This document shows positions 1-28,062 of a stretch of DNA of 64,000 nucleotides, one piece after another. The first letter of the stretch is position 1. Each line of letters opens with the position of its first letter. The DNA is from Nesterenkonia sp. E16_10 (lineage in GTDB: Bacteria; Actinomycetota; Actinomycetes; Actinomycetales; Micrococcaceae), in the NCBI RefSeq assembly GCF_017347085.1, contig NZ_JADPSA010000022.1, positions 124,001 to 188,000 on the forward strand. The letters are read 5' to 3'. The translations under genes and the position numbers were made by a program. The notes below the pieces were generated by a model, which was not told the origin of the DNA, did no database searches, and worked only from the letters and a program-made list of their open reading frames with translations.

Positions 1-777
1 TCGATGCGGGCCCGGGCCGACCGGGTCGAGGCCTGGTTGGATCGATCGGACGTGGACGTCCTGGCGATCCAGGAGACCAAGTGCAAGGACGAGAACTTCC
101 CCTGGGAGCTCTTCGAGGCCAACGGCTACGACGTCGCGCACTTCGGGCTGAGCCAGTGGAACGGGGTGGCCATCGCCTCCCGAGTCGGCATGAAGGACGT
201 GGAACGGACCTTCCAGGACCAGCCGGTGTTCGGCAAGGGCGGCAAGGACCCCATCCAGGAGGCCCGCGCCATCGCCGCGACCTGCGGCGGAGTGCGCATC
301 TGGAGCCTCTACGTCCCCAACGGGCGCTCCCTCGAGGACGAGCACATGAGCTATAAGCTCGCCTGGCTGCGGCAGCTCAACGAGCACGCGCAGTCCTGGC
401 TGAACGAGGAGCCCAAGGCCCAGATCGCGCTGATGGGCGACTTCAACATCGCCCCGCAGGACGAGGACGTCTGGGACATCGACTTCTTCCGCGAGCAGGG
501 CCTGACCCACGTCTCAGCACCCGAGCGCGAGGCGTTTCAGGGCTTCCTGGACAGCGGCTACACCGAGGTCGTCCGGCCCCACACCCCCGGCCCCGGGGTC
601 TACACCTACTGGGACTACACCAAGCTGCGCTTCCCCAAGAAGGAAGGCATGCGGATCGACTTCGTGCTGGGCTCGCCCGCGCTGACCGAACGCGTCACCT
701 CCGCCTCGATCGACCGTGAGGAGCGCAAGGGCAAGGGCGCCTCCGACCACGCTCCCGTGCTGGTGGAGCTGGGCTGA
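1..777 (+). CDS. xth: Exodeoxyribonuclease III, 5' end cut by window edge
   Basis: This is a Mg-dependent AP endonuclease / 3'-5' exonuclease of base-excision repair, in the EEP (endonuclease/exonuclease/phosphatase) fold. Visible family motifs are the metal-binding AIQETK near the left end, LYVPNGR, MGDFNIAP in the middle, and the C-terminal MRIDFVLGS and GASDHAPV with the catalytic Asp-His pair. The reading frame is open to base 1, and the family normally begins about a dozen residues earlier (an RIATWNVNS-like strand). The ATG at base 4 is therefore probably internal and the true start lies outside the window. It is convergent with the next gene, and the two share a strong hairpin terminator. 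Function is confident; only the N-terminus is unknown. Confidence 0.93.
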   Translation, partial: SMRARADRVEAWLDRSDVDVLAIQETKCKDENFPWELFEANGYDVAHFGLSQWNGVAIASRVGMKDVERTFQDQPVFGKGGKDPIQEARAIAATCGGVRIWSLYVPNGRSLEDEHMSYKLAWLRQLNEHAQSWLNEEPKAQIALMGDFNIAPQDEDVWDIDFFREQGLTHVSAPEREAFQGFLDSGYTEVVRPHTPGPGVYTYWDYTKLRFPKKEGMRIDFVLGSPALTERVTSASIDREERKGKGASDHAPVLVELG

Positions 778-802
778 TCCAGCAGAGCCGGAACAGCGAC
801 TG

Positions 803-854
803 AACGACGACGGCGCCTGGTCCTCCACGTGGAGGATCAGGCGCCGTCGTCGTT
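803..854. terminator. Bidirectional hairpin terminator between xth and the DUF4282 gene
   Basis: Two 24-base arms (803-826 and 831-854) are complementary except for one G-U pair, with a 4-base ACGT loop. The hairpin lies exactly between two convergent stop codons. There is no long T-run, which is common for high-GC actinobacterial terminators. Confidence 0.85.
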
Positions 855-875
855 GTGCCAGGAGGAGGCGGAGGC

Positions 876-1691
876 TCAGCGGCTGTTCTTCAGCTCAGAT
901 CGCAGCGCTTCGATCTCGCTCCGGGTCCCGGCGGTGTTCTGCGAGGTGCGGACCAGCGCGATCATGAACTCCAGCGAGATCCGGATCAGGATCAGGTAGA
1001 TCGCCGCGGGAATCCAGCCCAGCAGCAGAACGATCATGCCTTCCGCAGCGCCGTCGCTGAACGCCGCAATGACCACGACCAGGTAGCCCAATGCGATGAA
1101 CGCGATCAGGATCGCGTAGATGAACTTGGCGAACTTCACGGCCACGAAGCTCTGGAACGAGAAGTCGAAGAGCGCCGCAAAGAAGTTCTTGCCCTCTGGC
1201 GACCTGTGCTTCGTCGGGGCTCCCTGAGACTGCGGGTACGGCTGCTGGTACGGCTGACCGGGGTACTGGCCGGGGTACTGCTGACCGGCCGGACCGGGCT
1301 GACCCTGGCCGGGGCCCTGGCCGGGCTGACCAGGCTGGTTGGGCTGGTTGGGCTGGTTGGGCTGGTTGGGACCGGGGTAGCCGCTCTGCTGCTGTCCATA
1401 CCCATAGCCCGAAGGGCCGTAGCCGGAGGGACCGGCACCTGGCGCCTGCTGGTGCGGCGGCGCTGGCTGGCCGTAACGACCCGCCTCGGGCTGACCTGGG
1501 ACCGTTCCGGGCGGGTTCGGCGACTGGCCAGGGGGACGCCCGGGGACGCCGGGCTCGTTCGGAGCAGCGCCCAATGGTCTGGTGGGCTGGTGACCCGGTG
1601 AGTCGGCGTCTTCAGGGGTCTGTTCCCGGCGCTGGCCCGGATTCTGGTCCTTGCCCTCGGAAGGTTCGTCCTGGCCTGGGTGCTGAGTCAT
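876..1691 (-). CDS. DUF4282 membrane protein with Pro/Gly/Gln-rich N-terminal tail
   Basis: 271 residues. The first ~165 residues are low-complexity and disordered, rich in Pro, Gly, Gln and Asn, including four back-to-back NQP triplets. The C-terminal ~100 residues carry the DUF4282 pattern: an FDFSFQSF-type start, two hydrophobic segments and the conserved RISLEFMIALVR stretch, then a short helical tail. The protein is predicted to be an inner-membrane protein with a cytoplasmic tail. No enzymatic motif is visible and the function of DUF4282 is unknown. The start ATG follows a GGAGGCGCC ribosome binding site. It is transcribed alone, and its 3' end shares a terminator with xth. Confidence 0.8.
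   Translation of the reverse strand: MTQHPGQDEPSEGKDQNPGQRREQTPEDADSPGHQPTRPLGAAPNEPGVPGRPPGQSPNPPGTVPGQPEAGRYGQPAPPHQQAPGAGPSGYGPSGYGYGQQQSGYPGPNQPNQPNQPNQPGQPGQGPGQGQPGPAGQQYPGQYPGQPYQQPYPQSQGAPTKHRSPEGKNFFAALFDFSFQSFVAVKFAKFIYAILIAFIALGYLVVVIAAFSDGAAEGMIVLLLGWIPAAIYLILIRISLEFMIALVRTSQNTAGTRSEIEALRSELKNSR
1334..1376. repeat. Short tandem repeat encoding (NQP)n
   Basis: About four copies of a 9-base GGGCTGGTT-like unit read in phase within the DUF4282 gene and encode successive Asn-Gln-Pro triplets on the minus strand. Copy number may vary by slippage without breaking the reading frame. Confidence 0.75.
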
Positions 1692-1776
1692 GGCGCCTCC
1701 TATGATGTGCGGTCGCTCCGCGTCGTTCTCAACCTATACGAGGCGATCTTGAACAGTCGAGCATTCCACCCGCAGG

Positions 1777-2064
1777 TCAGGACGAGCGCCTATCCCCATC
1801 CTCGGAGTCAGGGGAAGCCTCAGAGGTTGCGGCCCGGATGCGCTCGGCGAGCGATGCAGGCGGCTCCTCCTCGTCCCAGGTCATCTCCGCAGCGTCCAGG
1901 CGGGCCGCAGTCGAGCCAAGCTCTGCGAGCTCCACGTCGATCGAGGGGTCTGCGGCTCGGGCCTGGTCAAGCTCAAGCCACTCCTGGTCACTGAGACCGC
2001 CCGTCAGCGCCCCGGCGATGAGCTCCGCGCGCCGCGAAGGCCGTTCCGTCATCGTGCGCGTCAC
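1777..2064 (-). CDS. Minimal anti-sigma-factor-like protein
   Basis: 95 residues, starting inside the end of the upstream ECF sigma gene (77-base overlap), so the two are very likely translationally coupled. The segment from LIAGALTGGL to ELGSTAARL resembles the N-terminal helical domain of RskA/zinc-anti-sigma proteins. The HxxxCxxC zinc ligands are absent, and there is no transmembrane helix or periplasmic domain. It therefore looks like a cytosolic, N-domain-only anti-sigma factor. Position and helix pattern support this role, but sequence identity to any family is weak. Confidence 0.55.
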   Translation of the reverse strand: MTRTMTERPSRRAELIAGALTGGLSDQEWLELDQARAADPSIDVELAELGSTAARLDAAEMTWDEEEPPASLAERIRAATSEASPDSEDGDRRSS

Positions 2065-2563
2065 CTCCCATGGCAGCCCGAAGGGACCTCATCCCGTAAT
2101 ACATCCGCGTCCGCAGGGTCGCGACCGGAATCCCGGTCCGCTCCGAAAGCTCTTGGTAGCCTACGCCGTCCAGCTGAACTGCGGCAATCACCTCTCGGTG
2201 CTCGTAGGTGAGGGTCGCGAGGGACTCATAGAGGACCAGACGCTCCACGATGAGCAGGTCCTCGGTCACGGGCTCGCTCGCCCACTCGATCTTCTCCGCA
2301 TCCGAGGGCGCCGGGCGCCGGGCGCGAGCGCGCAGCGCATCGATGACCAGATTCCGGGTGATGGCAAACAGCCAGGTCCGCACGGATCCCCGTGAGGTGC
2401 GGTACCGATCCCTGCTCCGCCAGGCCCGGATGAAGGCTTCTTGGACGCAGTCCTCAGCCTCGGTGCGGTCCCCGAGCGCGTTGAGCGCGAACGAATAGAG
2501 CGCACCACCATGTTCGGCGAAAGCTACCTGCACCTCGAAGGGCGAGTCGTCATCGGCGCGCAT
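1988..2563 (-). CDS. ECF-type RNA polymerase sigma factor
   Basis: About 191 residues with both ECF regions. Region 2 includes the DCVQEAFIRAWR core-binding helix and an SVRTWLFAITRNLVIDALR -10 recognition segment. Region 4 includes LATLTYEHREVI and the YQELSERTGIPVATLRTRMYYGMRSLR helix-turn-helix. The ATG at 2563 is preferred over a GTG at 2572 because GAGGTG lies six bases upstream of it. The C-terminus has a short Arg/Gly-rich tail where the anti-sigma gene overlaps. It sits between a DUF4282 gene and the polylysine-synthetase locus. Whether it controls that locus cannot be told from sequence. Confidence 0.9.
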   Translation of the reverse strand: MRADDDSPFEVQVAFAEHGGALYSFALNALGDRTEAEDCVQEAFIRAWRSRDRYRTSRGSVRTWLFAITRNLVIDALRARARRPAPSDAEKIEWASEPVTEDLLIVERLVLYESLATLTYEHREVIAAVQLDGVGYQELSERTGIPVATLRTRMYYGMRSLRAAMGGDAHDDGTAFAARGAHRRGADGRSQ

Positions 2564-2753
2564 AGAAGACACCTCTGCCCGATCTGGCAGGAGGTGAGCA
2601 AGGTTCCTCCTCCGCCGTGGACCTCACCGAGAACTCCGGCGCTACCCGGTGCCAGGCGGCTTCCCGGGCCATGACGGAACCACGGAGCGGACGGGTGCGA
2701 CCGGCGAGCAGCTTCACGGGGGTGTGGTGCTGAACGGAGGAAGAAACAGGCAT
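2550..2753 (-). CDS. Possible small upstream ORF of the sigma operon
   Basis: 67 codons with a strong GGAAGGTGAG ribosome binding site just before its ATG. Its stop codon overlaps the start of the ECF sigma gene by 14 bases. That layout suits a leader peptide or translational coupler. Third-codon GC is high in the first half but falls toward the end. There are no recognisable motifs. It may be real or may simply be the leader of the sigma mRNA. Confidence 0.35.
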   Translation of the reverse strand: MPVSSSVQHHTPVKLLAGRTRPLRGSVMAREAAWHRVAPEFSVRSTAEEEPCSPPARSGRGVFYARR

Positions 2754-2774
2754 AAGAACTCACCTTCCTGGTCC

Positions 2775-2802
2775 CCTATCGCGTCCGGTGCAAGGATTTC
2801 AA
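2775..2802 (-). promoter_or_regulatory. Candidate promoter for the ECF sigma operon
   Basis: On the minus strand, TTGAAA (2797-2802) and GATAGG (2775-2780) are separated by 16 bases and lie just upstream of the small ORF's ribosome binding site. The -35 is close to consensus and the -10 is moderate. Confidence 0.35.
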
Positions 2803-3144
2803 CCGGGGACGGTCCTTAAGTGCTGAGCCTCTAGTAGAGTAGCCCCGCTCACTCTGTTTCCACAAGATGTGATGAGAATCACAATTCAGACTGAGCATTC
2901 CCGTCGCCAATACGCTCTCTCGCGTCGACGCATCCCGTGGCCTGAGCCCCTCGTCAAGACGCCTGCGCGTCGTCGAGCAGAGACCTCCCCGAGTCAGGGG
3001 TCGCAGATTCTTTGGCCCTGCGTTGAACGCCGCTCCCGATCCTCGCGTATCCCCTGTTACAACCGATCCGCCATCCGGACCGGGACCCATTGGTCGCGCC
3101 TGGAAACGACAGGACGTTGACGCTATCCGCCGAAAAGGTGATTC
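2803..3144. other. Intergenic region upstream of the Pls-like synthetase
   Basis: About 340 bases with no convincing gene. It holds a perfect CRP/GlxR-type palindrome at 2868-2883 and an AAAAGGTG ribosome binding site just before 3145. No lysine-riboswitch hallmark and no convincing sigma-A or ECF promoter for the synthetase gene was found by eye. Confidence 0.6.
2868..2883. promoter_or_regulatory. Perfect CRP/GlxR-type operator upstream of pls
   Basis: TGTGATGAGAATCACA matches the TGTGA-N6-TCACA consensus of CRP/GlxR-family regulators exactly and is fully palindromic apart from the centre. It lies about 260 bases upstream of the pls start and about 66 bases upstream of the candidate sigma-operon promoter, so it could act on either transcript. 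Confidence 0.6.
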
Positions 3145-6100
3145 ATGGTTCTATATGAAGGCTCGCCGCAGGCCCTCCCCTCGGTGACCCCGGAGCTTGC
3201 ATCGAAAGCTTCTCCTGCCCCAGTCCGACGCGAAGAGAACTCGGGTGAGGTCATTGCACTGACCGCACCCGCCGGACCTCCGAAGCTCAGTGACCACCGG
3301 AGACACCTTGCGCCTTCGACCGCTGTCTACTCCGGCGGGGCCGTAGCGGCCCCACGAACCCTTCTGGACATCTTCTTCACCACCGTGGACAACTACCCCG
3401 ACGCGATCGCGCTCGACGACGGCGTCGTCGCGCTGACCTACATGGACCTGCTGGGACGCATCGAATCGGTGGCGCAGATCCTGCGTGAGTCCGGCATCGG
3501 CACCGGAGACCGAGTAGGCATCCGCGTGCCGTCCGGGACGAATGATCTCTACATCGCCGTCCTGGCCGCCATGAACCGTGGTGCGGCCTACGTTCCGGTG
3601 GACCACGACGAACCCGAGGAGCGCGCCACCCTGGTCTGGGAAGAGGCCAGCGTCAGCGCCGTGATCGGTTCCGGTCTGAACGTCCACCTCCGGCCAGAGT
3701 CTCCCCCGCATGGGAAATACCATCGCCCCACCGGCGACGACGATGCCTGGATCATCTTCACCTCCGGCTCCACCGGGAAGCCCAAGGGAGTCGCGATCTC
3801 ACACAGGTCCGCGGCTGCATTCGTGGACGCCGAGGCCTCGGTCTACTGCGTGGATGCACCGCTCGGGCCGGGCGACCGGGTGCTTGCCGGACTCTCGGTG
3901 GGCTTCGACGCGTCCTGTGAAGAGATGTGGCTGGCCTGGCGCTACGGCGCCTGCCTGGTGCCGGCGCCCCGCGAGGTGGTCCGGTCCGGCGAAGACCTCG
4001 GACCCTGGATGGCTGCACGCGGCATCACCGCCATCTCCACCGTCCCGACGCTGGCCGCGATGTGGCCCGCGGAGTCCCTGGACAACATCCGGCTGCTCAT
4101 CTTCGGCGGAGAGGCCTGCCCGCCCGAGCTCGCCGCACGCCTGGCCACCGACGGCCGGGAGGTCTGGAACACCTACGGACCCACCGAGGCCACCGTCGTC
4201 TCCACGGCAGCGCTGGTCGACGGTGCCACTCCGGTGCGCATCGGGCTTCCGCTGCGCGGCTGGCAGCTGGCAGTCGTGGACGCCGAGGATCAACCGGTGC
4301 CCTGGGGCGAGGTAGGACAGCTGGTGATCGGCGGAGCCGGACTGGGCCGCTATCTGGACCCGGAGAAGGATGCCGAGAAGTACGCACCGATGACCACGCT
4401 CGGTTGGCCGCGCGCCTATCGCAGCGGGGATCTGGTGCGTGCCGAGATCGAGGGGCTGATTTTCGTGGGCAGAGCGGATGATCAGGTCAAGCTTGCCGGC
4501 CAGCGGATCGAGCTGGGTGAGGTCGATGATGCCTTGAGCCACCTGCCCAATGTCGCCGCCGGCGCCAGCGCCGTGCAGAAGAGCCCGGACGGCAATGGAA
4601 TCCTCGCCGGGTACCTGGTGCCCGCCGCGGGGAAGGTCATCGACCTGGCCGAGGCCCGCGCCCGGCTCAGCGAGCAGCTGCCGGGACGTCTTGTCCCAGC
4701 ACTTGCGGTGATCGATGAACTGCCGGTGAAGACCTCCGGCAAGGTCGATCGCAAGGCCCTGCCCTGGCCGCTGCCAGCAGACCCGAGCGCGGCGGCCGCA
4801 GCCGCCACGCTGCACACCGACTTCGTCTGGCTGGCCGAGAAGTGGACCAGCCTGCTCGGACCGGTGCCGATGAGTGCAGACAGCGACTTCTTCACGCTGG
4901 GCGGCTCCAGCCTGAGCGCCGCCCAGCTGGTCTCGATGCTGCGCAAGCGCTACCCCGATGTTTCGATCGCAGACCTCTACGCCCACCCCACGCTTTCCGC
5001 GATGTCCTCACACCTGCGGCAGCTGGATCCGACATCCGCGGTGGAACGAACGACTCGTCCCACGCCGCGGTGGACCGGCTTCCTGCAGCTGCCGCTGATC
5101 GCGAGCCTCTACGGCATCATCGGCCTGCGCTACGTCACCGGAATCGCCATCGTCTGCCTGGTGCTGTTCCAGATCGGTGAGACCCCATGGGTCCCGAACC
5201 CACCACTGATCCCGACCATCATCGCCTGGGCGGTCCTGTTCAGCCTGCCCGCGCGAGCACTGGCAGCCATCGGCTCCTCCCGGCTCCTGCTGTTCAAGGT
5301 CAGGCCGGGCATCTATCCGCGCGGCGGAGTGATACACATCCGACTCTGGGCCGCAGAGCGGATCATGACCTTCTGCCAGCTGGACGGACTGATGGGCACC
5401 CCCATGGCACCCGCATTCGCGCGAGCCCTGGGTGCCGGAGTCGGCAAGGACGTCCACCTGGACGCGCTTCCGCCGGTCACCGGCCTGGCCGCGATCGAGT
5501 CCGGGGCGTCCATCGAGCGCGACGTGGACCTCGCCGGGCATTGGCTCGAGGGCGACACCTTGCACATCGGCATCGTACGCATCGGCCAGAACGCCCGCGT
5601 GGGCACCAGGGCGACCCTGCAAGGCGGCGCCGTGATCGGCGACGACGCAGAGATCGCCCCCGCCAGCGTGGTCACCGGCATGGTCCCGAAGAACGAATAC
5701 TGGGCAGGCTCACCGCTGGAGCGGGTCGGCACCTCAGGACAGGACTGGCCGGAGTCGACGCAGCAGGAGAGCCCGCACTCCCGCGGCACCGACCTGCTGT
5801 ACCCGCTCGGACTCGTCCTGCTGGGGCTCCTGGCGCTGGCGGCACCGCTGCCCGGCGCAGCCCTCATGTTCTACCTGATCTCCGACTTCGAGGCCCTGGC
5901 GCCCGCGCTGTGGACGTTGGCCGCGTGGACACCGGTGTTCGTGCTCCTCACCGTGGTGACGTACCTCGGCCTGCTCGCCGGATCCGTCCGGCTCATGGGT
6001 CGACTCATGCCTCGAGGCACCCACTCGGTGCACAGCGTTCCCGCATGGGCCGCCTGGATGTCCGGGCAGCTGATGTCGAAGTCTCTGATCAACATGTACC

Positions 6101-7212
6101 CGCTCTACTCCAGCATGGCGACCCCGTTCTGGCTGCGCCTGCTCGGCGCACATGTGGGCAAGGACGTGGAAGCTGCCACCGTTGAAGCAATTCCACACCT
6201 GACCAGCGTCGGTGACAAGGCGTTCCTGGCCGACCATTCGCTGGTCTCCTCCAAGTACGTGCGTCACGGCTGGGTGCGGCTCGAGAGCGGCAGCGTCGGG
6301 CAGAAGGCGTTCCTCGGCAATTCGGCGATCCTCGGTCCAGACCAGAGGATGCCCTCGAACTCGCTGGTCGCCGTGCTCTCCAGTGCACCGAAGAGCATGC
6401 CGGCAAACTCCCTGTGGCTCGGCAACCCGCCGATCGAGCTGCCGCGGGCCCCTGAGCCGGTCGATGCCTCACTGACCTACGAGCCCAGCCGCCGGCTCAA
6501 GCTCGCCCGCGCCACCGTGGAGCTGTGCCGGATGGTGCCGATGTTCATCACCGCCTGGCTGGCTCTGATCACGGTCTTCGTGCTCTCGACGATCTTCGAC
6601 GCCTATGGCCTCCTGGTCGCCGTGCTGTTCTCCGGACCGGTGCTGCTGGCCAGCGGAATCGTCGCTGCTCTCATCCCGATGGCGGCCAAGTGGCTCCTCG
6701 TCGGTCGGTTCAAGGCGACCCAGAAACCGCTGTGGAGCTCCTTCGTCTGGCGCAACGAGCTGGCCGACTGCTTCTCCGAGGCGCTTGCCGTTCCCGGACT
6801 GATCCGGATGAGCCTGGGCACCCCCCTGCTGAACCTGTGGCTGCGCGGAATGGGCGCGCGCATCGGTCGCGGCGTCTGGTGTGAGACCTGGTGGCTGCCC
6901 GAGTTCGACCTGATCCAGCTCGACAAGGCGGCCACGATCAACCGGGGCACCGTCCTGCAGACCCACCTGTTCCACGATCGCATCATGCGGCTGGACCGCG
7001 TCCATTTCGAGGAAGGCTCCTCACTCGGGCCGAACAGCATCGTGCTCCCCGGAAGCTCCCTGGGTGCCCACGCCAGCGTGGGTGCAGGGTCTCTGGTGAT
7101 GCGCTCGGAATCCATCCCGGAATCCACCACGTGGAACGGGAACCCGATCCGGCGGACTCAGGTCAGCGCCGGTACCCGAGAATCCCTGGCGCCCGCCGGG
7201 ACGCTTCGTTGA
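3145..7212 (+). CDS. pls: Membrane NRPS of the epsilon-poly-L-lysine synthetase (Pls) type
   Basis: 1355 residues, close to the ~1300 of characterised Pls proteins. Domain order: adenylation domain (~70-545) with TSGSTGKPKG, NTYGPTE (342-348), YRSGDL and the A10 lysine K533; thiolation domain with the phosphopantetheine Ser589 in LGGSSL; then six predicted membrane helices in three pairs (~650-712, 885-949, 1130-1185). The pairs enclose three soluble domains with hexapeptide/left-handed-helix patterns (~766-849, 995-1100, 1237-1340), the tandem C domains diagnostic of Pls. There is no classical HHxxxDG condensation domain and no thioesterase. Alignment by eye to GrsA gives the code D-A-E-S-I-G-T-V-V-K, similar to remembered lysine codes. 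Known Pls enzymes join lysine through its epsilon-amino group into ~25-35-mers. Lysine versus another diamino acid is inferred. The start follows AAAAGGTG. Confidence 0.9.
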   Translation: MVLYEGSPQALPSVTPELASKASPAPVRREENSGEVIALTAPAGPPKLSDHRRHLAPSTAVYSGGAVAAPRTLLDIFFTTVDNYPDAIALDDGVVALTYMDLLGRIESVAQILRESGIGTGDRVGIRVPSGTNDLYIAVLAAMNRGAAYVPVDHDEPEERATLVWEEASVSAVIGSGLNVHLRPESPPHGKYHRPTGDDDAWIIFTSGSTGKPKGVAISHRSAAAFVDAEASVYCVDAPLGPGDRVLAGLSVGFDASCEEMWLAWRYGACLVPAPREVVRSGEDLGPWMAARGITAISTVPTLAAMWPAESLDNIRLLIFGGEACPPELAARLATDGREVWNTYGPTEATVVSTAALVDGATPVRIGLPLRGWQLAVVDAEDQPVPWGEVGQLVIGGAGLGRYLDPEKDAEKYAPMTTLGWPRAYRSGDLVRAEIEGLIFVGRADDQVKLAGQRIELGEVDDALSHLPNVAAGASAVQKSPDGNGILAGYLVPAAGKVIDLAEARARLSEQLPGRLVPALAVIDELPVKTSGKVDRKALPWPLPADPSAAAAAATLHTDFVWLAEKWTSLLGPVPMSADSDFFTLGGSSLSAAQLVSMLRKRYPDVSIADLYAHPTLSAMSSHLRQLDPTSAVERTTRPTPRWTGFLQLPLIASLYGIIGLRYVTGIAIVCLVLFQIGETPWVPNPPLIPTIIAWAVLFSLPARALAAIGSSRLLLFKVRPGIYPRGGVIHIRLWAAERIMTFCQLDGLMGTPMAPAFARALGAGVGKDVHLDALPPVTGLAAIESGASIERDVDLAGHWLEGDTLHIGIVRIGQNARVGTRATLQGGAVIGDDAEIAPASVVTGMVPKNEYWAGSPLERVGTSGQDWPESTQQESPHSRGTDLLYPLGLVLLGLLALAAPLPGAALMFYLISDFEALAPALWTLAAWTPVFVLLTVVTYLGLLAGSVRLMGRLMPRGTHSVHSVPAWAAWMSGQLMSKSLINMYPLYSSMATPFWLRLLGAHVGKDVEAATVEAIPHLTSVGDKAFLADHSLVSSKYVRHGWVRLESGSVGQKAFLGNSAILGPDQRMPSNSLVAVLSSAPKSMPANSLWLGNPPIELPRAPEPVDASLTYEPSRRLKLARATVELCRMVPMFITAWLALITVFVLSTIFDAYGLLVAVLFSGPVLLASGIVAALIPMAAKWLLVGRFKATQKPLWSSFVWRNELADCFSEALAVPGLIRMSLGTPLLNLWLRGMGARIGRGVWCETWWLPEFDLIQLDKAATINRGTVLQTHLFHDRIMRLDRVHFEEGSSLGPNSIVLPGSSLGAHASVGAGSLVMRSESIPESTTWNGNPIRRTQVSAGTRESLAPAGTLR

Positions 7213-7232
7213 GAACGGAAGAAGGACACCCG

Positions 7233-8237
7233 ATGGATTCGACACCCGATCTCAGGTTTCGGCTCGCTCCCCCCTTCGGCACCGTGGTGACCGCTATGGT
7301 GACCCCCTTCGACCCGTCTGGTCATTTGGACCTCGACGGCGCCAGGGACCTGGCCTGCTGGCTCACCCGTGATGGTTGGAACGACGGCCTGGTCGTCAAC
7401 GGCACGACCGGGGAATCGATCACCACCACCGACGCGGAGAAGACGGCCATGGTCAGGACGGTGGCCGCCGCGGTCGGTGGACGGGCCACGGTGATCGCCG
7501 GAGTGGGGGTGGCCGACACCCAGCACAGCATCGACCTGGCGCAGGCTGCCGCGGAGTCCGGCGCCGATGGCCTGCTGGTGGTCGCACCCTATTACTGCCG
7601 TCCCAGTCAGGCCGGGCTGCTGCGGCACTTCACCGCGGTCGCAGAAAGCACCTCATTGCCCGTGATGCTCTACGACATCCCGAAACGCACCGGGGTCGCG
7701 ATCAGCCGAGAGACCTTCGCCGCAGCCGCGGGGCACCCGCAGATCGTGGCGGTCAAGGACGCCAAGGGCGATCTGGCATCGAGCTCCTGGGTCATGCGGC
7801 ACACGGACCTGACCTACTACTCGGGGGACGACATGCTGAACCTGCCGCTGCTCTCGATCGGGGCAACCGGATTCGTATCTGTGGTCGGCCACGTCGCCGC
7901 AGACCTGTTGCGCCACCTGCAACGCTGTCACCAGCAGGGAAGAACCGTTCAGGCCGCCGGCATCCACCGTCAGCTGCTCGCCGTCTATGAGGGCATGTTC
8001 CGCGCGCCCGCAGCCGCCTCGGTCAAGGCTGCGTTGGCGATGCAGGGCCTGCCCGGCGGGCCTGTGCGCCTGCCGCTGGTGGCACTCGACGACGCCGAAG
8101 GCCAGCTGCTCTCGCTGGACCTGGCGGAGTCCGGGATCCCGAACCGCGCCATGCCGGCTCGAGCCATGGTCTCTGCGGAGGCCACGGTGTCCCAGTCCGG
8201 CGGGGCACGGCCCGTGCTCAGTCTGAGACTGCCATGA
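7233..8237 (+). CDS. dapA: 4-hydroxy-tetrahydrodipicolinate synthase, DapA family
   Basis: 334 residues, a TIM-barrel class I aldolase that condenses pyruvate with aspartate semialdehyde, the first dedicated step to diaminopimelate and lysine. Active-site elements are present: NGTTGES, APYYCRPSQ, Tyr147 in LYDIPKRTG, and the Schiff-base Lys175 in VAVKDAKGD. The C-terminus runs about 30 residues past the usual end. The ATG at 7233 is chosen for its GAAGAAGGA site and starts 20 bases after the pls stop, so the two are surely co-transcribed. Its position implies a dedicated lysine or DAP supply for the synthetase rather than the housekeeping copy. Other N-acetylneuraminate-lyase-superfamily activities remain possible. 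Confidence 0.88.
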   Translation: MDSTPDLRFRLAPPFGTVVTAMVTPFDPSGHLDLDGARDLACWLTRDGWNDGLVVNGTTGESITTTDAEKTAMVRTVAAAVGGRATVIAGVGVADTQHSIDLAQAAAESGADGLLVVAPYYCRPSQAGLLRHFTAVAESTSLPVMLYDIPKRTGVAISRETFAAAAGHPQIVAVKDAKGDLASSSWVMRHTDLTYYSGDDMLNLPLLSIGATGFVSVVGHVAADLLRHLQRCHQQGRTVQAAGIHRQLLAVYEGMFRAPAAASVKAALAMQGLPGGPVRLPLVALDDAEGQLLSLDLAESGIPNRAMPARAMVSAEATVSQSGGARPVLSLRLP

Positions 8238-9460
8238 GGGGGGCAACCCGAGGCGCCCCAGCCCTCGCCTCGGCCACCTCGGCCGGGCAGAAGCCCAAGC
8301 GCCGCCTGATGGCGGTCGATGCTGCGCGGGGCCTCGCGCTGGTCTTCATGGTGGCCATCCACGTGCTTCCCTCCTGGACGCAGAACGGGGATCCGACCTT
8401 CATCTGGTCTGCCTTCTCCGGTGTCGGGGCAACGCTGTTCGCGCTGCTGGCAGGCGTGACGCTGGCCTTCCTGACGGGCGGGCGACGTCCGCTGCGGGGC
8501 CACGCGATGACCTCGGCGAAGGCGGCGCTCGCGGTGCGGGCGGTGCTGATCGCCGCCCTGGGGCTGCTCCTGGCCTACGTCGACCCGCCGGCATCCATCA
8601 TCCTGGTCTACTACGGCGCCATGTTCCTGCTGGCCATTCCGCTGCTCCGGCTCTCATTCCGGGCGCTGGTGGCCGTGGCCCTGGGGATCGCGGTACTGGG
8701 CCCGATGCTGGTGCATCTGACGCAGAACTCACTGCCGACCCTCGACGGCTACGATCCGACCCTCACCACGCTGGTCACGGACCCGATCACGTTCCTCAGC
8801 GTCGTCTTGTTCACCGGCAGCTTCCCGGTCATCCCGTGGATGGCCTACGTGTGTGCCGGCATGGCGATCGGTCGCCTCGATCTGAAGGCGAAGTCCACGG
8901 CTGCGCGGCTGTTCATCACCGGAGCCGCGGTCGCCGTCGTCGTCTGGTTGAGCTCGGCGCTGCTGCAGGGTCCGTTGGGCGGCCGTGATCAGCTGTTCTG
9001 GGCGACGCCGTGGTCGGCGGGCGAGATCGAGAACTTCCTCACCTGGGGTCCGCCACCGGACCTTCCGAGCACCACCTGGTGGTGGCTCACCGTCTTGGCT
9101 CCCTATACCTCGACGCCGTTCGAGGTCCTGCATTCGCTGGGCATCGCGACGGCCGTGCTGGGAGCGATGCTGCTGCTGGGCCGCTGGGCCGCACGCGTGG
9201 TGCAGCCCTTGGCGGCGATCGGCAGCATGACGCTGACGCTGTACTGTGCGCATCTGCTGATGTTGGCCACCGGCTTCCTCGCCGATGCGCCATGGGCGTC
9301 TTTGATCATCCAGCTGCTCGCGGCCACCGGGTTCGCGGTGGCCTGGAGACACTTCCGAGGCCCGGGCCCGCTGGAACACGGCATCTCTGTGGCCACCAAG
9401 ACCGTGCGGGACCGGGTCGGCACACGCCTGGAGGAGAGGACACCGCGATCAAGACACTGA
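8234..9460 (+). CDS. Polytopic membrane protein, HGSNAT/DUF1624-like acyltransferase
   Basis: 408 residues with roughly ten hydrophobic helices. It opens with the RLMAVDAARGLALVFMVAIH motif typical of DUF1624 / heparan-alpha-glucosaminide N-acetyltransferase-like and DUF418 proteins. A late segment, SMTLTLYCAHLLML, carries a conserved His. Start and upstream stop overlap as ATGA, so translation is coupled to dapA. Relatives transfer acyl groups across membranes, but many are uncharacterised. In this operon it could modify, export or give tolerance to the cationic product. That role is inferred from context only. Confidence 0.7.
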   Translation: MRGATRGAPALASATSAGQKPKRRLMAVDAARGLALVFMVAIHVLPSWTQNGDPTFIWSAFSGVGATLFALLAGVTLAFLTGGRRPLRGHAMTSAKAALAVRAVLIAALGLLLAYVDPPASIILVYYGAMFLLAIPLLRLSFRALVAVALGIAVLGPMLVHLTQNSLPTLDGYDPTLTTLVTDPITFLSVVLFTGSFPVIPWMAYVCAGMAIGRLDLKAKSTAARLFITGAAVAVVVWLSSALLQGPLGGRDQLFWATPWSAGEIENFLTWGPPPDLPSTTWWWLTVLAPYTSTPFEVLHSLGIATAVLGAMLLLGRWAARVVQPLAAIGSMTLTLYCAHLLMLATGFLADAPWASLIIQLLAATGFAVAWRHFRGPGPLEHGISVATKTVRDRVGTRLEERTPRSRH

Positions 9461-9562
9461 GCGTCCTGTGATTCTCGGTCCACTAGACTGACGTTCGAGA
9501 ACCAGGCGCAGCCATATGTGCGCGCATACTGTCCTTTGTCTTCCAAGGTGCCGGAGGGGTAC

Positions 9563-9745
9563 GTGCGCAGCAATCGCGACGACGCGGCCAAAGCCTTGTA
9601 TGAAGAACGCAGAAAGCTGCTCGCCGGCCTGATGATGTCTGAAGCGGAGCCATGGGAAGACCTGCCCGAGGATGTGAAGGAACGCTGGCGGGGCAAGTCC
9701 GAGAGCCCCGGAACCTCCGAAGACCCTGGAGTGCCCAGGCCCTGA
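9563..9745 (+). CDS. Small acidic/basic hypothetical protein
   Basis: 60 residues starting at a GTG preceded by GGAGG at good spacing. It is rich in charged residues, with the central pattern LYEERRKLLAGLM followed by PWEDLPEDVKERW, probably two amphipathic helices. No family is recognised. It lies about 100 bases after the membrane acyltransferase-like gene and is convergent with the phosphopantetheinyl transferase. Codon use matches its neighbours, which supports a real gene. Confidence 0.55.
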   Translation: MRSNRDDAAKALYEERRKLLAGLMMSEAEPWEDLPEDVKERWRGKSESPGTSEDPGVPRP

Positions 9746-9801
9746 GCCCAGGGCAAAGGGGGAAGGCCGCGCCCGAGCGAGCTCTGCTCCGGCCTGGTGT
9801 C

Positions 9802-10446
9802 TCATCGACCCGGACGAGTGACCGGGCCGGGGTTCCGCGCCAGAGCCAGCATCAGCAGACCACTGTCCCGGGTGTTCTCCCCCGTCGGGCCCTCAGTCGC
9901 GATCTTGCCTTCGGGCCCGGGTGGGGTGCGCAGATCGGTCACCGTGATGTGGTCGTGGCTGAGACAGACCGGAGCATCCCAGGGCTCGTTCAGCACCACG
10001 GCGCCGGGCGGCAGGCCGCCGCGCCCGGTGTCGAACCCGGTGTGCAGCGACTTGAGCACCGCCTCCTTGCGCACCCAGGTGCGCAGCAGCCAGGCCAGCC
10101 GCCGGGCCCGGGCCGCACCCTTCGTCTCACGGAACCACTTCAGCTCCTCGGGTGCCAGCACCAGCTCGGCGAACTCGGCGGGCTCGGTGACCGAATCAAG
10201 GAACGGCCGGACGACCTCGATGTCGATCCCCAGGGAGCACTCCTCCCCTGGGCCGGCGCAGGCCGCTGCGAGGTATCCGTTCGAGCGGGACCGGGAGAGC
10301 TCCACCCGGTGGCCGTCGATCCTGGCCTCGGGCGCTCCGCGCCGCCGGGGCAGCTCCACCCGGAGCGGATCCACGCCGTAGGTCTGCGCCACCAGGGCGC
10401 GGACGGCCGAGTCCGCATCGCGGTCAGCCCCATACGTCCATTCCAC
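9802..10446 (-). CDS. 4'-phosphopantetheinyl transferase, Sfp/EntD superfamily
   Basis: About 214 residues. It transfers phosphopantetheine from CoA to the serine of carrier domains. Signature motifs are LGIDIE (metal-binding Asp/Glu), FAELVLAPEE and WVRKEAVLKS with the catalytic Glu-Ala-Lys segment. The GTG at 10446 is chosen because GGAGGTGG sits six bases upstream; an ATG at 10482 would add 12 residues without a good site. It is divergent from the M1 peptidase gene and close to pls, whose Ser589 is the obvious substrate. It may also be the cell's general PPTase for other carrier proteins. Confidence 0.85.
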   Translation of the reverse strand: MEWTYGADRDADSAVRALVAQTYGVDPLRVELPRRRGAPEARIDGHRVELSRSRSNGYLAAACAGPGEECSLGIDIEVVRPFLDSVTEPAEFAELVLAPEELKWFRETKGAARARRLAWLLRTWVRKEAVLKSLHTGFDTGRGGLPPGAVVLNEPWDAPVCLSHDHITVTDLRTPPGPEGKIATEGPTGENTRDSGLLMLALARNPGPVTRPGR

Positions 10447-10572
10447 CGACCCACCTCCCGAAACCTGTGTTGAGCGCTGCATGTCATCGAGTCAGCTCAT
10501 TCTCACACCGCTTCCCGGCGGTCGGGGCCGCAGCCTGGAAATTCGACCTTGTAGAAGGACACGTGTTTCACC

Positions 10573-11874
10573 ATGAGCCAGCCAGATCCCTACACCCCCA
10601 CCTCAGGTTCGGCGGAGCTGAAGGTCGCGCACTACGACCTGGATCTCGACTACGAGGTCCGGCCGAACCGCCTCACCGGCCACGCGAAGCTCCACGTGCG
10701 CGTGCTCACCGAGACCTCCAGCATCGAGCTTGATCTGTGCGGCCTGAAGGTCAGCCAGGTGCTCCTGGACGGCACCCAGACCCGGTACAAACAGACCCGC
10801 ACGAAACTGGTGCTCCCAGGTCGCTTCGCCGCAGACGAGGCGCTCATCATCGACGTGCACTATCGGGGACGGCCCCGACCACGGAAGGGCCCGTGGGGCG
10901 CCGTCGGCTGGGAGGAACTCAGCGACGGCGCGCTGGTGGCGGGACAGCCCAATGGGGCAGCCACCTGGTTCCCCTGCAACGACCATCCCAGCGACAAGTC
11001 CACCTACCGCTGCAAGGTCGTGCTCGACTCGGACTACACCGCGATCAGCAACGGTGCGCTGCGCCAGGTGACCGCTGAGGGCAGCCGCACGGCCTGGACC
11101 TGGGAGTCCGACCGACCGCTGGCGACCTACCTTGCGACGGTCCAGATCGGAGCATACCGGCGCGGTCGGATCGCACCAGCTCAGCACCCTCCGGCCCGAG
11201 TGCCGCTGGAGCTGGCCTGCGGGGAGCACCAGTGGCAGCGGGCACAGGACGCCCTGGCGAAACAACATGCGATGCTCACGGTCTTCGAACGAGACTTCGG
11301 CGAGTATCCCTTCAACGACTACACGGTCGTGGTGACCGACGATGAGCTGGAAATTCCCCTTGAATCCCAGCCGCTGTCCATCCTGGGGGCGAATCACCTG
11401 AGCCCGGGCTGGGACTCCGAGCGCCTGATCGCCCACGAACTCGCCCACCAATGGTTCGGCAACTCCGTGACTCCGCGACGCTGGACCGACATCTGGCTCA
11501 ACGAAGGCTTTGCCAGCTACGCGGAGTGGCTGTGGTCGGAAGCCTCCGGCCAGCTCGGCGCCGACGCGCATGCTCGCTCCGCGCACGACCGGCTGGCGTC
11601 CCTGCCGCAGAACATCGTGCTCGCCGATCCCGGCGGACCCGACATGTTCGACGACCGGGTCTACCTGCGCGGGGCGCTGACGCTGCACGCGCTGCGCAGG
11701 TCCACCGGTGACGAGATGTTCTTCCGAGTGCTGCGCTCATGGACGACGGAGAATCGATATGGCTCCGTGACCACCGCAGACTTCCTCGACCATGCCGAGC
11801 GAGTCACCGGGCAACCCGCGCGGTCGCTGCTGCATGGCTGGCTGTTCGAGCCGACGCTGCCCGGTCTGCGCTGA
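10573..11874 (+). CDS. M1-family zinc aminopeptidase, short form
   Basis: 433 residues. An N-terminal beta-domain is followed by the gluzincin catalytic domain with HELAH (288-292) and the third zinc ligand Glu311 in WLNEGFASYAEW, i.e. HExxH-x18-E. The exopeptidase GAMEN loop is replaced by IPLESQ, like the ALETQ loop of short bacterial M1 proteins, so the substrate-anchoring Glu is kept. The long C-terminal helical domain of full aminopeptidase N is missing. There is no signal peptide. Epsilon-polylysine producers are known to have zinc peptidases that trim the polymer. This gene is a candidate for that role because of its position, but it could be a general aminopeptidase. Confidence 0.85.
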   Translation: MSQPDPYTPTSGSAELKVAHYDLDLDYEVRPNRLTGHAKLHVRVLTETSSIELDLCGLKVSQVLLDGTQTRYKQTRTKLVLPGRFAADEALIIDVHYRGRPRPRKGPWGAVGWEELSDGALVAGQPNGAATWFPCNDHPSDKSTYRCKVVLDSDYTAISNGALRQVTAEGSRTAWTWESDRPLATYLATVQIGAYRRGRIAPAQHPPARVPLELACGEHQWQRAQDALAKQHAMLTVFERDFGEYPFNDYTVVVTDDELEIPLESQPLSILGANHLSPGWDSERLIAHELAHQWFGNSVTPRRWTDIWLNEGFASYAEWLWSEASGQLGADAHARSAHDRLASLPQNIVLADPGGPDMFDDRVYLRGALTLHALRRSTGDEMFFRVLRSWTTENRYGSVTTADFLDHAERVTGQPARSLLHGWLFEPTLPGLR

Positions 11875-12047
11875 GTGGAAGATCCCTCCTTGATCACGGT
11901 GACCCGCCCGGCTTTTCGCTTCCCTGCGACCGAACATCTCCTACACTCATGGCAGAGCCCACCCGGGGCATGGCATGACCCCGATCAGATCCGTCGGCAA
12001 GAGTCTCCGAGAGCACATCGGGGCCGAAGCATGGCGCAGGCGCAAGG

Positions 12048-12974
12048 ATGACCACTATGACCACGCGTTGGGTGCTGCTGTGTGGACTGCTGGCAGCTGT
12101 GCTCGCCGGCCTCCTCGGGCTCTTCGCGATGAGCCTGCTCCTGGGCGAGGACGAGGCCACCGAGACTGCGGAGAATTCACCGGCCAGGTGCGAGCCCCAC
12201 GGGATCGTGCCGCCGGACCCGCGCGCTCAACCGGACTCCGTGACCGGTATCGGCGTTGCCGACGAGCCCGGTGAGTCTGCTGGCTCCGCGGATGCGGTCC
12301 AGCTCCATCAGGAGTTCACCTCGGGTGACACGACCAGCCGCTACCACCTGTTCACCCGGGGCGTGGACTTCGATGAGCCGGTCGGGGTCGTGGTGAGGCT
12401 GCACGGAGACGGCGGAGCTGAATTCGAGGACCCCGATGGTCTGCTGAACTGTCTCGCCGCGGTCGCCGCGTCCCAGAACATGATGTTGCTGGCTCCACTG
12501 ACGCCGGATGTGCAGGGCGAGGTCACCTGGTGGGAGGACATCTCCACGAACCTTCCGTGGCTGAACGACCTGTTGACCCAACGCGTGACACAGTCCTTCC
12601 CCGTCGATCCTGAGCGGATCTGGTGGATGGGGTACTCGGGCGGAGCCGAGATGATCACCTATGGCGTGCTTCCCCGGACCCCCGAGCTGGTCACAGGAGG
12701 CGCCGTGATGATCGGGGGTGGAGGAGATCCAGAGGCAGCGGTTGAAGAACCCACCTCGGAGCAGCGACAGTTCCTGGACCTGATCTGGGTGACCGGAACA
12801 TTGGATGACGGCTCGGTCCCCTACGCCCCGTTCGACGCCGTCACAGCCGCCCGAGAAGGTTCGGCCTGGTACCGCCAGCAGGGATTCGAGCAGGTCCGGG
12901 CCGAGTATCCGGAGGGCGAGGATCACTTCTCACTGCAGCAGGCACGGATCCTGGACGAGGCGCTCGCACAGTAG
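12048..12974 (+). CDS. Secreted or membrane-anchored alpha/beta hydrolase
   Basis: About 308 residues. An N-terminal hydrophobic helix (WVLLCGLLAAVLAGLLGLFA) acts as signal anchor, followed by an acidic linker and a hydrolase domain. The nucleophile elbow is GYSGGA in the middle, the oxyanion-hole strand is VVVRLHGDGG, and the His near the C-terminus is in GEDHFS. The pattern is closest to secreted esterases/PHB-depolymerase-like proteins. The start could also be the ATG at 12057, which has AAGGA at better spacing. It stands alone between the M1 peptidase and a convergent regulator. The substrate is unknown. Confidence 0.7.
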   Translation: MTTMTTRWVLLCGLLAAVLAGLLGLFAMSLLLGEDEATETAENSPARCEPHGIVPPDPRAQPDSVTGIGVADEPGESAGSADAVQLHQEFTSGDTTSRYHLFTRGVDFDEPVGVVVRLHGDGGAEFEDPDGLLNCLAAVAASQNMMLLAPLTPDVQGEVTWWEDISTNLPWLNDLLTQRVTQSFPVDPERIWWMGYSGGAEMITYGVLPRTPELVTGGAVMIGGGGDPEAAVEEPTSEQRQFLDLIWVTGTLDDGSVPYAPFDAVTAAREGSAWYRQQGFEQVRAEYPEGEDHFSLQQARILDEALAQ

Positions 12975-13019
12975 CCCACCGGCTCGAATCTCCGCGAGGG
13001 TGAACCGGATCCGGGATTC

Positions 13020-14282
13020 TCAGGTCTGCTGCTCCGTGAGGAGCGTGGCGATCGCCTCCGCACGAGAACCCGCCTTCAGCTTGTGCAGGATCCGTGAGAT
13101 GTGGAACTTCACCGTGTTCTCGCTGATACCCAGCTCTTCAGCGATGGCGCGATTCCGGCTGCCTGAGGCAAGCAGGTTCGCCACCTCCATCTCCCGGGGC
13201 CGCAGACCCGCTATGGCGGCCGTGGAGGGCCGAACCAAGGGAGGCTCCAGGGGCAGCACCGCTGAGAGCTCTGCCCCCCATCCTGACGTGGAGTTGACCG
13301 CCAGCTGGCCCCTGAGGGCATGGATGCGCTGCTGAACGCTCTGCAGCAGAGTCTCTGCATCTGCGGTCCCGCCATCGCCGTCATCCCGAACCTTGAGGAT
13401 CAGGCCGGTTCCGTCACAGGACCACTGCACGCGCACCCGGCTGATCTCGGAGCGTTGCATCCGGCTGAGAATAAACCGGTGGACCACGGCCCTGGCGCCA
13501 CGGGCCACGTCGTCGGGGATCAGATGGTCACCCTCAGGAGGTTCTATGAACTCCAGTTCAACCTGCCAGGACCGCGCAGCGGACCAGAGCTCCTCCTTCA
13601 GGCGCGCGAAGGCCAGCGTCACCGACTCCGCCGCCACGGTGTGTGCCTGCTCGGTCATCCCACGAAGTCGTTTCAGTCCCGCGGCGGACCTTGCGATGGC
13701 GGCGTCTCGCGCGGAGGCATCGGAGAGCTGCCCCGACCGCAGCGGAACCAGGATGCTGTCCAGGGTCGCAGAGTACTCGTCCTTGATCTCGCTCAGCACC
13801 TGCAGGCGCAGCCCTGCGGTGGAGCGTGCGTGTCGGAGATAGTCGGGGGCGGCTTCATCTGCGCGCTCCTGCACGTGCAGCGCCACGATGTTCCAGATGT
13901 CCAGCAGCGGGTCGAGATCCTCCATCGGGCCTGGATCGGTGAGCACCAGGAGCGCGCCATTGCGGGCCACCACCTGGATCGCTGGGCGCCGGTCATCGCC
14001 GACGAGCAGTGTGGTTCGATGCACGCCCTCGACGCTGCCGATCTTGTTTCTGAGCCCATCAAGATCCAGTCCACGCACCCCGCGCTGGACGGTCGGATCA
14101 CCGCAGCATTGGATGCGTCCGCCGCTGGGATCGGCGGTGAGCGTGATCAACGCCGAGTGGGCCACCAGTGGGCTCAGCAGATCGGAGAGCCCGCGAACGA
14201 TCAGGCCGAGCGGCGAAGCGAGAACCTCGAAGAGCGGGTGGAGCTGACCGTCGGGCAGTGTGACGCGTTCCATACTTCTCAT
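13020..14282 (-). CDS. LuxR-family regulator with degenerate sensor/ATPase module
   Basis: About 420 residues from the ATG at 14282 (14273 also possible). The N-terminal ~170 residues look like a GAF-type sensory domain. The centre has a helical stretch, then a GHKL-ATPase-like C-terminal portion (RVRVQWSCDGTGLILKVRDDGDGG, then GWGAELSAVLPL). The end is a clear LuxR/FixJ helix-turn-helix (LRPREMEVANLLASG, then ISENTVKFHISRILHKL). It thus resembles a NarL-type sensor kinase fused directly to its output domain, with no obvious phospho-acceptor His and no receiver. It is divergent from formaldehyde dehydrogenase, which it may control. That link is inference. Confidence 0.75.
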   Translation of the reverse strand: MRSMERVTLPDGQLHPLFEVLASPLGLIVRGLSDLLSPLVAHSALITLTADPSGGRIQCCGDPTVQRGVRGLDLDGLRNKIGSVEGVHRTTLLVGDDRRPAIQVVARNGALLVLTDPGPMEDLDPLLDIWNIVALHVQERADEAAPDYLRHARSTAGLRLQVLSEIKDEYSATLDSILVPLRSGQLSDASARDAAIARSAAGLKRLRGMTEQAHTVAAESVTLAFARLKEELWSAARSWQVELEFIEPPEGDHLIPDDVARGARAVVHRFILSRMQRSEISRVRVQWSCDGTGLILKVRDDGDGGTADAETLLQSVQQRIHALRGQLAVNSTSGWGAELSAVLPLEPPLVRPSTAAIAGLRPREMEVANLLASGSRNRAIAEELGISENTVKFHISRILHKLKAGSRAEAIATLLTEQQT

Positions 14283-14412
14283 CCTACTGAGGCGACCTAC
14301 TCGAAGGTAGGGCTGCGGCCAACCACAAGTGTCATTGAGAAGACTCACACCCAAATAGAGACTTAAACCATGTGGCGGAATCTTGCCGTCGCGGCCCAAG
14401 GAGAGGATAGCA

Positions 14413-15630: not shown

Positions 15631-15700
15631 ACCGGCTCCACAACAGCCCACCGAGATCGCTGATCGAGGTGCAGGGCCGCTGAGATTCAGCGAAGCAGGA

Positions 15701-15732
15701 CGGGGCTCACCTTCACCAGGAGGTGGGCCCCG
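15701..15732 (+). terminator. Hairpin terminator downstream of fdhA
   Basis: GGGGCTCACCT and AGGTGGGCCCC form an 11-base stem (one G-U pair, plus a closing C-G) around an 8-base loop, about 70 bases after the fdhA stop. Nothing else is evident in 15631-15885. Confidence 0.6.
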
Positions 15733-15885
15733 ACACCGCCTGCCAAACTGTCGACTTCGTCAGCCTCACCCAGGGAATCAGTCCTCGCAATTACTCCGCG
15801 CCACGATCCCTCTCCCACGAACCGAGCACGGCCCAGCTCGTCTCACCCCTCACCCCTCGGGCGGGGTCTCGGTGCCCCTCGCCGC

Positions 15886-27979: not shown

Positions 27980-28062
27980 ACCAGCACACGCACCACCGAA
28001 TAACCTCTCACTGGTTCTCCCGCTCGCGGTAGGGCGGAGAGATCGATTGAAGATGAAGATGA

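Follow-up and report, generated by a model that had tools for sequence, protein, structure and literature searches.

A predicted self-sufficient epsilon-poly-L-lysine locus combining pls with dapA and a transmembrane acyltransferase gene in Nesterenkonia sp. E16_10

The epsilon-poly-L-lysine synthetases (Pls) of Streptomyces albulus and Corynebacterium variabile have an adenylation (A) and a carrier (T) domain followed by three units of a transmembrane (TM) segment and a C domain, A-T-(TM-C)x3, and a lysine specificity code; the C. variabile enzyme was verified by heterologous expression in S. coelicolor (PMC8117764). PosA, a delta-poly-L-ornithine synthetase (PMC10522769), belongs to the same family and has the same repeated terminal domain, but differs in its code (DMEHNGTVSK, in which position 2 is Met) and in being encoded by a single-gene operon. 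In the clusters for gamma-poly-diaminobutyrate (Dab) and beta-poly-diaminopropionate (Dap), whose synthetase code is DFECLSVVTK, a precursor gene adjoins the synthetase (dat, ask; PMC8117764, legend to Fig. 1). Here we describe a pls locus of Nesterenkonia sp. E16_10, found in a stretch of 64,000 nucleotides (contig NZ_JADPSA010000022.1, positions 124,001 to 188,000; hereafter the window). Its synthetase shares the architecture and lysine code of the S. albulus and C. variabile enzymes, and it too has a neighbouring precursor gene, which is dapA rather than ask or dat. The locus contains an M1-type peptidase gene, as does the peptidase operon of PMC8117764, but in contrast to the S. albulus and C. 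variabile loci, dapA, an acyltransferase gene (act) and a 4'-phosphopantetheinyl transferase (PPTase) gene lie between pls and the peptidase gene, and an extracytoplasmic function (ECF) sigma factor gene is added. We think it probable that this block is a self-sufficient epsilon-poly-L-lysine locus, a reading in which production of the polymer by the organism is a prediction from sequence.

The list of open reading frames (ORFs) gives pls 1355 uninterrupted codons. Pfam matches were AMP-binding (PF00501) at residues 78-401, PP-binding (PF00550) at 562-624 and a single stretch of Hexapep at 811-845, and a Pfam scan of the ORF found no condensation or thioesterase domain. Residues 691-1335 matched the NCBIfam model TIGR02353, 'Pls/PosA family', with 599 bits (cut-off 423). 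Ser589, the serine of LGGSS, was identical in all nine aligned sequences, with the window Pls counted. A hydropathy scan placed three helix pairs after the carrier domain, at 651-678/688-710, 881-913/917-951 and 1127-1164/1149-1187. C1 alone among the C domains reached the Pfam score for Hexapep; since C1, C2 and C3 proved to be mutual repeats by profile comparison (hhalign probability 98.0 to 99.3%), the three hexapeptide-type domains described in the original prediction are a fair account. Its wider claim, a Pls-type A-T-(TM-C)x3 enzyme with Ser589 and no classical condensation or thioesterase domain, agrees with Pfam, TIGR02353, hydropathy and hhalign alike. The top match in the Protein Data Bank (PDB) was 7wew, the A domain of an epsilon-poly-L-lysine synthase, to which the window A domain aligns almost end to end (638 bits, against 388 for the runner-up chain). 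An A domain, a T domain with its serine, a membrane terminal domain, a lysine code and the placement in trees described below identify the window synthetase as a full-length Pls, unremarkable within a well-known family of which it is a new member.

The specificity code was read from a computed alignment to GrsA, whose sequence was checked against 1amu. It consists of D255, A256, E259, S298, I319, G321, T343, V351, V352 and K533, that is DAESIGTVVK, the code of lysine-type Pls, and every position coincides with the lysine-like code that had earlier been read by hand, well past what chance would give. Among 147 synthetase ORFs taken from the loci compared in this study, a number that includes duplicates (e.g. 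L004-L016 versus L114-L124), 140 had DAESIGT[VI][VI]K, five DFECLSVVTK and two DGESVSVVNK, the last two rows representing one locus. This set was extracted differently from an earlier one of 92 loci, 4 of which lacked the full code where the ORF was cut at extraction. An A-domain tree was built from 69 hand-picked rows, among which characterised enzymes, PosA included, are absent; in it, a branch with support of 99 united all 62 DAESIGT rows, the window among them, apart from the five DFEC rows. The full-length tree agrees on this separation of lysine-type from Dap/Dab-type sequences. The long outgroups GrsA and L215 (a locus described below) attach amid the Nesterenkonia rows in the A-domain tree, which speaks against a simple story, and the full-length tree has the Nesterenkonia rows inside a clade defined by act; we trust the full-length tree above the A-domain tree, yet are unsure of the root. 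The predicted lysine specificity is well supported by the code shared with 140 of 147 ORFs, by 7wew as the top PDB match and by the lysine-pathway gene dapA as the next gene.

This next gene, dapA2, begins 20 bp past the pls stop codon and is preceded by AGAAGGA; its start was set at 7233, as the version in the ORF list (6891-8237) begins too early. It is the second gene in the genome above the TIGR00674 cut-off, and its product is 45% identical to that of the other copy, on contig 16. The catalytic residues of E. coli DapA are taken to be T44, T45, Y107, Y133, R138 and K161; at these six positions DapA2 reads TTYYRK, identical to the E. coli enzyme. Its equivalog score and these residues indicate that dapA2 is an intact member of the DapA family. 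The lysine allosteric site of E. coli DapA is presumably formed by S48, A49, H53, H56, N80, E84 and Y106, a site on which family membership does not depend; here DapA2 has SIDKAHY, differing at five of seven positions, and the housekeeping copy has TSDKNHY, also with five differences, so that any insensitivity is not special to dapA2. The idea of a specially feedback-resistant dapA2 was dropped for this reason. Asn80 is missing in all 30 dapA2-like rows and is kept in the housekeeping copy. In S. diastatochromogenes, overexpression of dapA raised epsilon-polylysine by 19.8% (Li et al. 2021, cited in PMC8506220).

Related synthetases with other codes adjoin other precursor genes, which makes supply of lysine for the polymer the most likely role of dapA2. 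Five genomes of the family Micrococcaceae encode DFECLSVVTK synthetases (L220-L224, in G219, G207, G168, G369 and G243). An aspartate kinase gene lies beside those of L222, L223 and L224 and a diaminobutyrate transaminase gene beside those of L222 and L223; a dapA match was absent at all five loci in neighbour scans that covered only some ORFs at L220, L221 and L224. At L220 and L221, an act relative (47-48% identity) is divergent from the synthetase gene. These loci are likely poly-Dab/Dap clusters, and dapA in the polylysine block fits the same agreement between code and supplier. A window product built from a different diamino acid (gamma-poly-Dab, beta-poly-Dap or delta-polyornithine) is very improbable. 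The enzymes for all three belong to one synthetase family with Pls, and the weak activity of PosA on lysine indicates that codes are not absolute. However, position 2 of the window code is Ala256, neither Met nor Phe, and this position has been argued to set chain length, with Phe for Dap/Dab, Met for ornithine and Ala for lysine (PMC10522769); in addition, the A domain falls with the DAESIGT group apart from DFECLSVVTK (in a tree without PosA), and the neighbour is dapA, not an aspartate kinase gene with a Dab transaminase gene.

A different pairing was seen at L215, a Micrococcaceae locus (G130, contig 63), where a synthetase gene (5791-9657; code DGESVSVVNK) is accompanied by a dapA-like gene (9806-10666), an aminomutase gene (10849-12198) and an act-like gene (35% identity). 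The aminomutase is a KamA-family radical SAM protein with 246 bits to TIGR00238 (cut-off 199) that does not reach the lysine 2,3-aminomutase equivalog. The code is nearly that of the poly-beta-lysine synthetase, DGESISVVNK (PMC10522769), and L215 is a candidate poly-beta-lysine cluster. It shows that a dapA relative may also adjoin a synthetase with a poly-beta-lysine-like code, but the L215 code carries Gly at position 2, where the window code DAESIGTVVK has Ala, and no aminomutase was found among the 17 ORFs scanned in window positions 4-18774; epsilon-poly-beta-lysine is thus hardly credible as the window product. Ornithine, Dab/Dap and beta-lysine were all rejected as substrates on the code and the neighbour genes.

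The start of act overlaps the dapA2 stop by 4 bp, and this overlap together with the 20-bp spacing suggests that pls, dapA2 and act form one transcript. Act shares Pfam matches and motifs with the transmembrane acyltransferase (TmAT) superfamily (AT3, HGSNAT, YeiB/DUF418; PMC12423673). The DxxRx10H motif, which has been described for transmembrane acyltransferases (PMC12423673, PMC9558356), was present in 22/22 Act proteins of an alignment of chosen sequences (alignment A2; a further alignment, A3, held 41 of 92 possible rows). Act also has FxxxxG, a conserved arginine (R102), a late tyrosine (Y337) and multiple TM helices, matching the multi-TM topology, DxxR(x10H), FxxxxG, TMH3 Arg and TMH9 Tyr that mark the superfamily. 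A TmAT acting on a poly-amino acid was not met in the parts of PMC12423673 and PMC9558356 available to us.

It is unlikely that dapA2 serves another aldolase reaction or the diaminopimelate supply of the cell wall while act alters the cell envelope in a way unconnected with the polymer. The DapA family does include other aldolases, but DapA2 scores under all their cut-offs, passes TIGR00674 and equals E. coli DapA at the catalytic positions assumed above. Relatives of act flank other synthetases too, and a DapA2 relative without a pls neighbour (L185/L216, in G179, contig 28) has TAYCRM in place of TTYYRK; with its catalytic positions lost, that protein is probably no longer a dihydrodipicolinate synthase. 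Against independent functions stand the spacing and overlap suggestive of one transcript, and a pls-dapA-act linkage that is kept in eight genera.

This linkage was found in at least 28 of 395 Micrococcaceae genomes, dapA being immediately preceded by the C-terminal part of pls and followed by act; the count is a lower bound, as the underlying DapA2 search reached E values up to 1e-88 (32 matches in 31 of the 395 genomes, 30 of them obtained as loci and two as separately fetched stretches), and pls was seen in it by its C-terminal part (loci reach 1.5 kb), with full-length pls in larger fetched stretches. We then compared genes near pls, meaning within 6 kb on either strand, using clade lists drawn by hand from neighbours and tree. 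L116 and L193 were left out as duplicates, and L196 (a duplicate of L035) was removed, hence 16/17 rather than 17/18 below; L042, absent from the tree and on a contig that stops shortly after pls, was assigned to the sister group. In the window clade, 16/17 loci had a dapA gene near pls; it followed pls in the same direction, and the aligned ends were 18-201 bases apart. It was found in 0/8 loci of the sister group (Kocuria, Corynebacterium and G034) and in 1/73 others, the latter being a distant opposite-strand copy (L102). The corresponding counts for act were 17/17, 7/8 and 1/73, and those for the M1 gene 9/17, 0/8 and 67/73. M1 relatives lie downstream of pls in most of the other loci; in the window clade and its sister group, act (after dapA if present) fills the slot immediately behind pls that M1 usually occupies. 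The full-length Pls tree (FastTree, 131 rows) united the window clade and sister group with support of 99 and the dapA clade with 97; the tree label dapA+act is wrong for L037_m and L193_p, which are second Pls genes at their loci. These belong to Paeniglutamicibacter antarcticus (L037/L193), where a second Pls-type ORF lies on the opposite strand. Two act genes flank pls at L039, L191, L197 and L199.

Synthetases of the Pls/PosA family are not rare. TIGR02353 matches, with any code, occurred in 224/395 Micrococcaceae genomes and 23/32 genera, and among 14 control genomes in Corynebacterium glutamicum alone; the best 80 of 587 named loci came from many actinobacterial genera. Pls homologues have been noted in Corynebacterium, Brevibacterium, Arthrobacter, Microbacterium and others (PMC8117764), and the NAPAA cluster class has been reported in Leifsonia and among Antarctic Actinomycetota isolates. 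The view that such a synthetase is unusual outside Streptomyces and Kitasatospora was rejected on the Micrococcaceae counts, the named loci and the published coryneform Pls.

Within Nesterenkonia, full-length pls was found in 5/30 genomes, the proteins being 84-97% identical to the window Pls, and N. sandarakina has the same locus. Gene order was equal in the five genomes, save that a DUF4282 match was not found in L115. PPTase and M1 relatives occurred in the same five of 30 genomes and no others at E-value cut-offs of 1e-5 and 1e-40 for the PPTase and M1 searches, which very different PPTases would escape; the genome that holds the window has one further PPTase match (28 bits). The two close relatives G011 and G016 lack the block, and in them xth/DUF4282 lies directly beside luxR/fdhA: in both, one flank matches window positions 1-1196 and 1675-1766, the other matches 13019-15630, and roughly 80 bases separate the flanks. 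Since these relatives are without it at the same site, the block (Table 1) was either acquired or deleted as a unit.

Table 1. Features of the pls block, in window positions.
Feature	Positions	Strand	Basis
Block present or absent as a unit	1767..13018		BLASTN against L211 and L212; gene order; about 11.25 kb
Short anti-sigma-like protein, overlaps ECF gene	1777..2064	-	Weak, NF052375 25.6 bits (cut-off 100)
ECF sigma factor, divergent from pls	1988..2572	-	PF04542 78.6 bits; inside block
pls, epsilon-poly-L-lysine synthetase	3145..7212	+	1355 aa; A-T-(TM-C)x3; code DAESIGTVVK; phosphopantetheine Ser589
dapA2, 4-hydroxy-tetrahydrodipicolinate synthase	7233..8237	+	TIGR00674 259.7 bits (cut-off 206)
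act, transmembrane acyltransferase (TmAT superfamily)	8234..9460	+	HGSNAT_cat (PF07786) and Acyl_transf_3 (PF01757); DxxRx10H
4'-phosphopantetheinyl transferase (PPTase)	9802..10482	-	PF01648 48.5 bits (cut-off 25)
M1 zinc metallopeptidase, PldII-like	10573..11874	+	PF01433/PF17900; HELAH...E
Putative alpha/beta-hydrolase, secreted or membrane-anchored	12048..12974	+	Weak, PHB-depolymerase-like, 27 bits (cut-off 150)

The remaining genes of the block can be given roles with varying confidence. The PPTase, which scored 36.1 bits against TIGR00556, under the cut-off of 45.4, is likely the activator of the Pls carrier domain. A dedicated role is likely but not proven, because the genome has other non-ribosomal peptide synthetase (NRPS) genes. 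On the same contig, at contig positions 89552-97549, about 26 kb before the window, is an open frame of 3591 residues with three A-domain matches; the presence of this NRPS-like frame means that the genome holds other carrier domains needing a PPTase. The M1 peptidase, encoded 3.4 kb downstream of pls with dapA2, act and the PPTase gene intervening, has an intact zinc site and is likely a polymer-degrading or self-protection enzyme; its putative PldII-type assignment draws on the zinc site and the position in the pls locus. Relatives of the hydrolase occurred within 6 kb of pls, on either strand, in 10/25 act-clade loci (four Kocuria and one Corynebacterium locus included: L040, L041, L042, L088 and L089) and in 0/73 others, suggesting that this gene may be a further part of the cluster type, of uncertain membership. 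The ECF sigma factor is likely the cluster regulator. The assignment of the anti-sigma-like protein, for which no Pfam match was found, is weak. We found no Rfam match to a lysine riboswitch in the first 20 kb of the window (1-20 kb), and a promoter and terminator scan of 1600-13100 found none, fewer than in shuffles. Elsewhere in the window, AT skew reached 0.27 at 26001-28000 and 40001-42000; the other 2-kb stretches of the 32 were under 0.15 in size.

Several points weigh against the proposal of a self-sufficient polylysine locus. The proposal is a prediction from sequence. Most Pls loci have no adjacent dapA, so dapA is not needed for polymer synthesis; Zafaria (L036), inside the dapA clade, is without it, and four of the 32 DapA2-like matches lack a lysine-code pls as neighbour, one lying next to a synthetase with another code (L175/L188/L215) and three having no pls (L185/L195/L216, L186/L213 and L187/L214). 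Act is not specific to lysine polymers, because its relatives flank two Dab/Dap-code synthetases, and a PDB profile search found no relative of Act with a solved structure. Co-occurrence within the genus amounts to about one event rather than five, because the five genomes probably share one gain; the PPTase search would miss dissimilar PPTases in the other 25 genomes. In S. albulus, deletion of Pld and PldII left polymer yield and length unchanged (PMC8506220).

In the self-sufficient locus that we propose, the ECF sigma factor would switch the block on, the PPTase would prime Ser589 of Pls, and DapA2 would draw aspartate semialdehyde toward lysine. The A domain would activate L-lysine and load it onto the T domain, and the three tandem membrane C domains would connect the lysines at the epsilon-amino group and move the chain outward. 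Misplaced polymer would be broken down by the M1 peptidase. Act bears the features of enzymes that move acyl groups across the membrane; as a guess, it might transfer them to free amino groups on the polymer or on an envelope acceptor, for charge tuning or protection of the producer. The narrower idea that Act transfers acyl groups across the membrane to the alpha-amino groups of exported polylysine, giving an N-acylated polymer of lower charge, is doubtful; if true, N-acylated epsilon-polylysine would serve producer immunity or tune the use of the polymer. It is possible, though we favour it less, that the locus is silent in ordinary culture or yields short lysine oligomers for stress tolerance rather than an antimicrobial. 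C. variabile, with a working pls gene yet no polymer in culture (PMC8117764), offers a precedent, whereas the retention of intact genes in the five Nesterenkonia genomes and the adjacent ECF sigma gene speak for use. Such silence would be compatible with a self-sufficient locus.

A pls-dapA cluster was not found in the literature on polylysine and dapA, Nesterenkonia or Micrococcaceae genome mining, subscription papers and supplements being outside the scope, and is unmentioned in the accessible parts of PMC8506220, PMC9617413, PMC11078813, PMC10628120 and PMC9973853. This silence is weak evidence of novelty, and the cluster looks like a modest new variant around a known enzyme. Polylysine is a commercial food preservative whose yield has already been raised by overexpressing dapA, and a dapA gene built into the pls locus in eight genera would be a ready-made supply module. 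The match between synthetase code and adjacent precursor gene may provide a second, independent predictor of the diamino acid used by members of this family, and the acyltransferase raises the question of how producers tolerate the polycation that they make.

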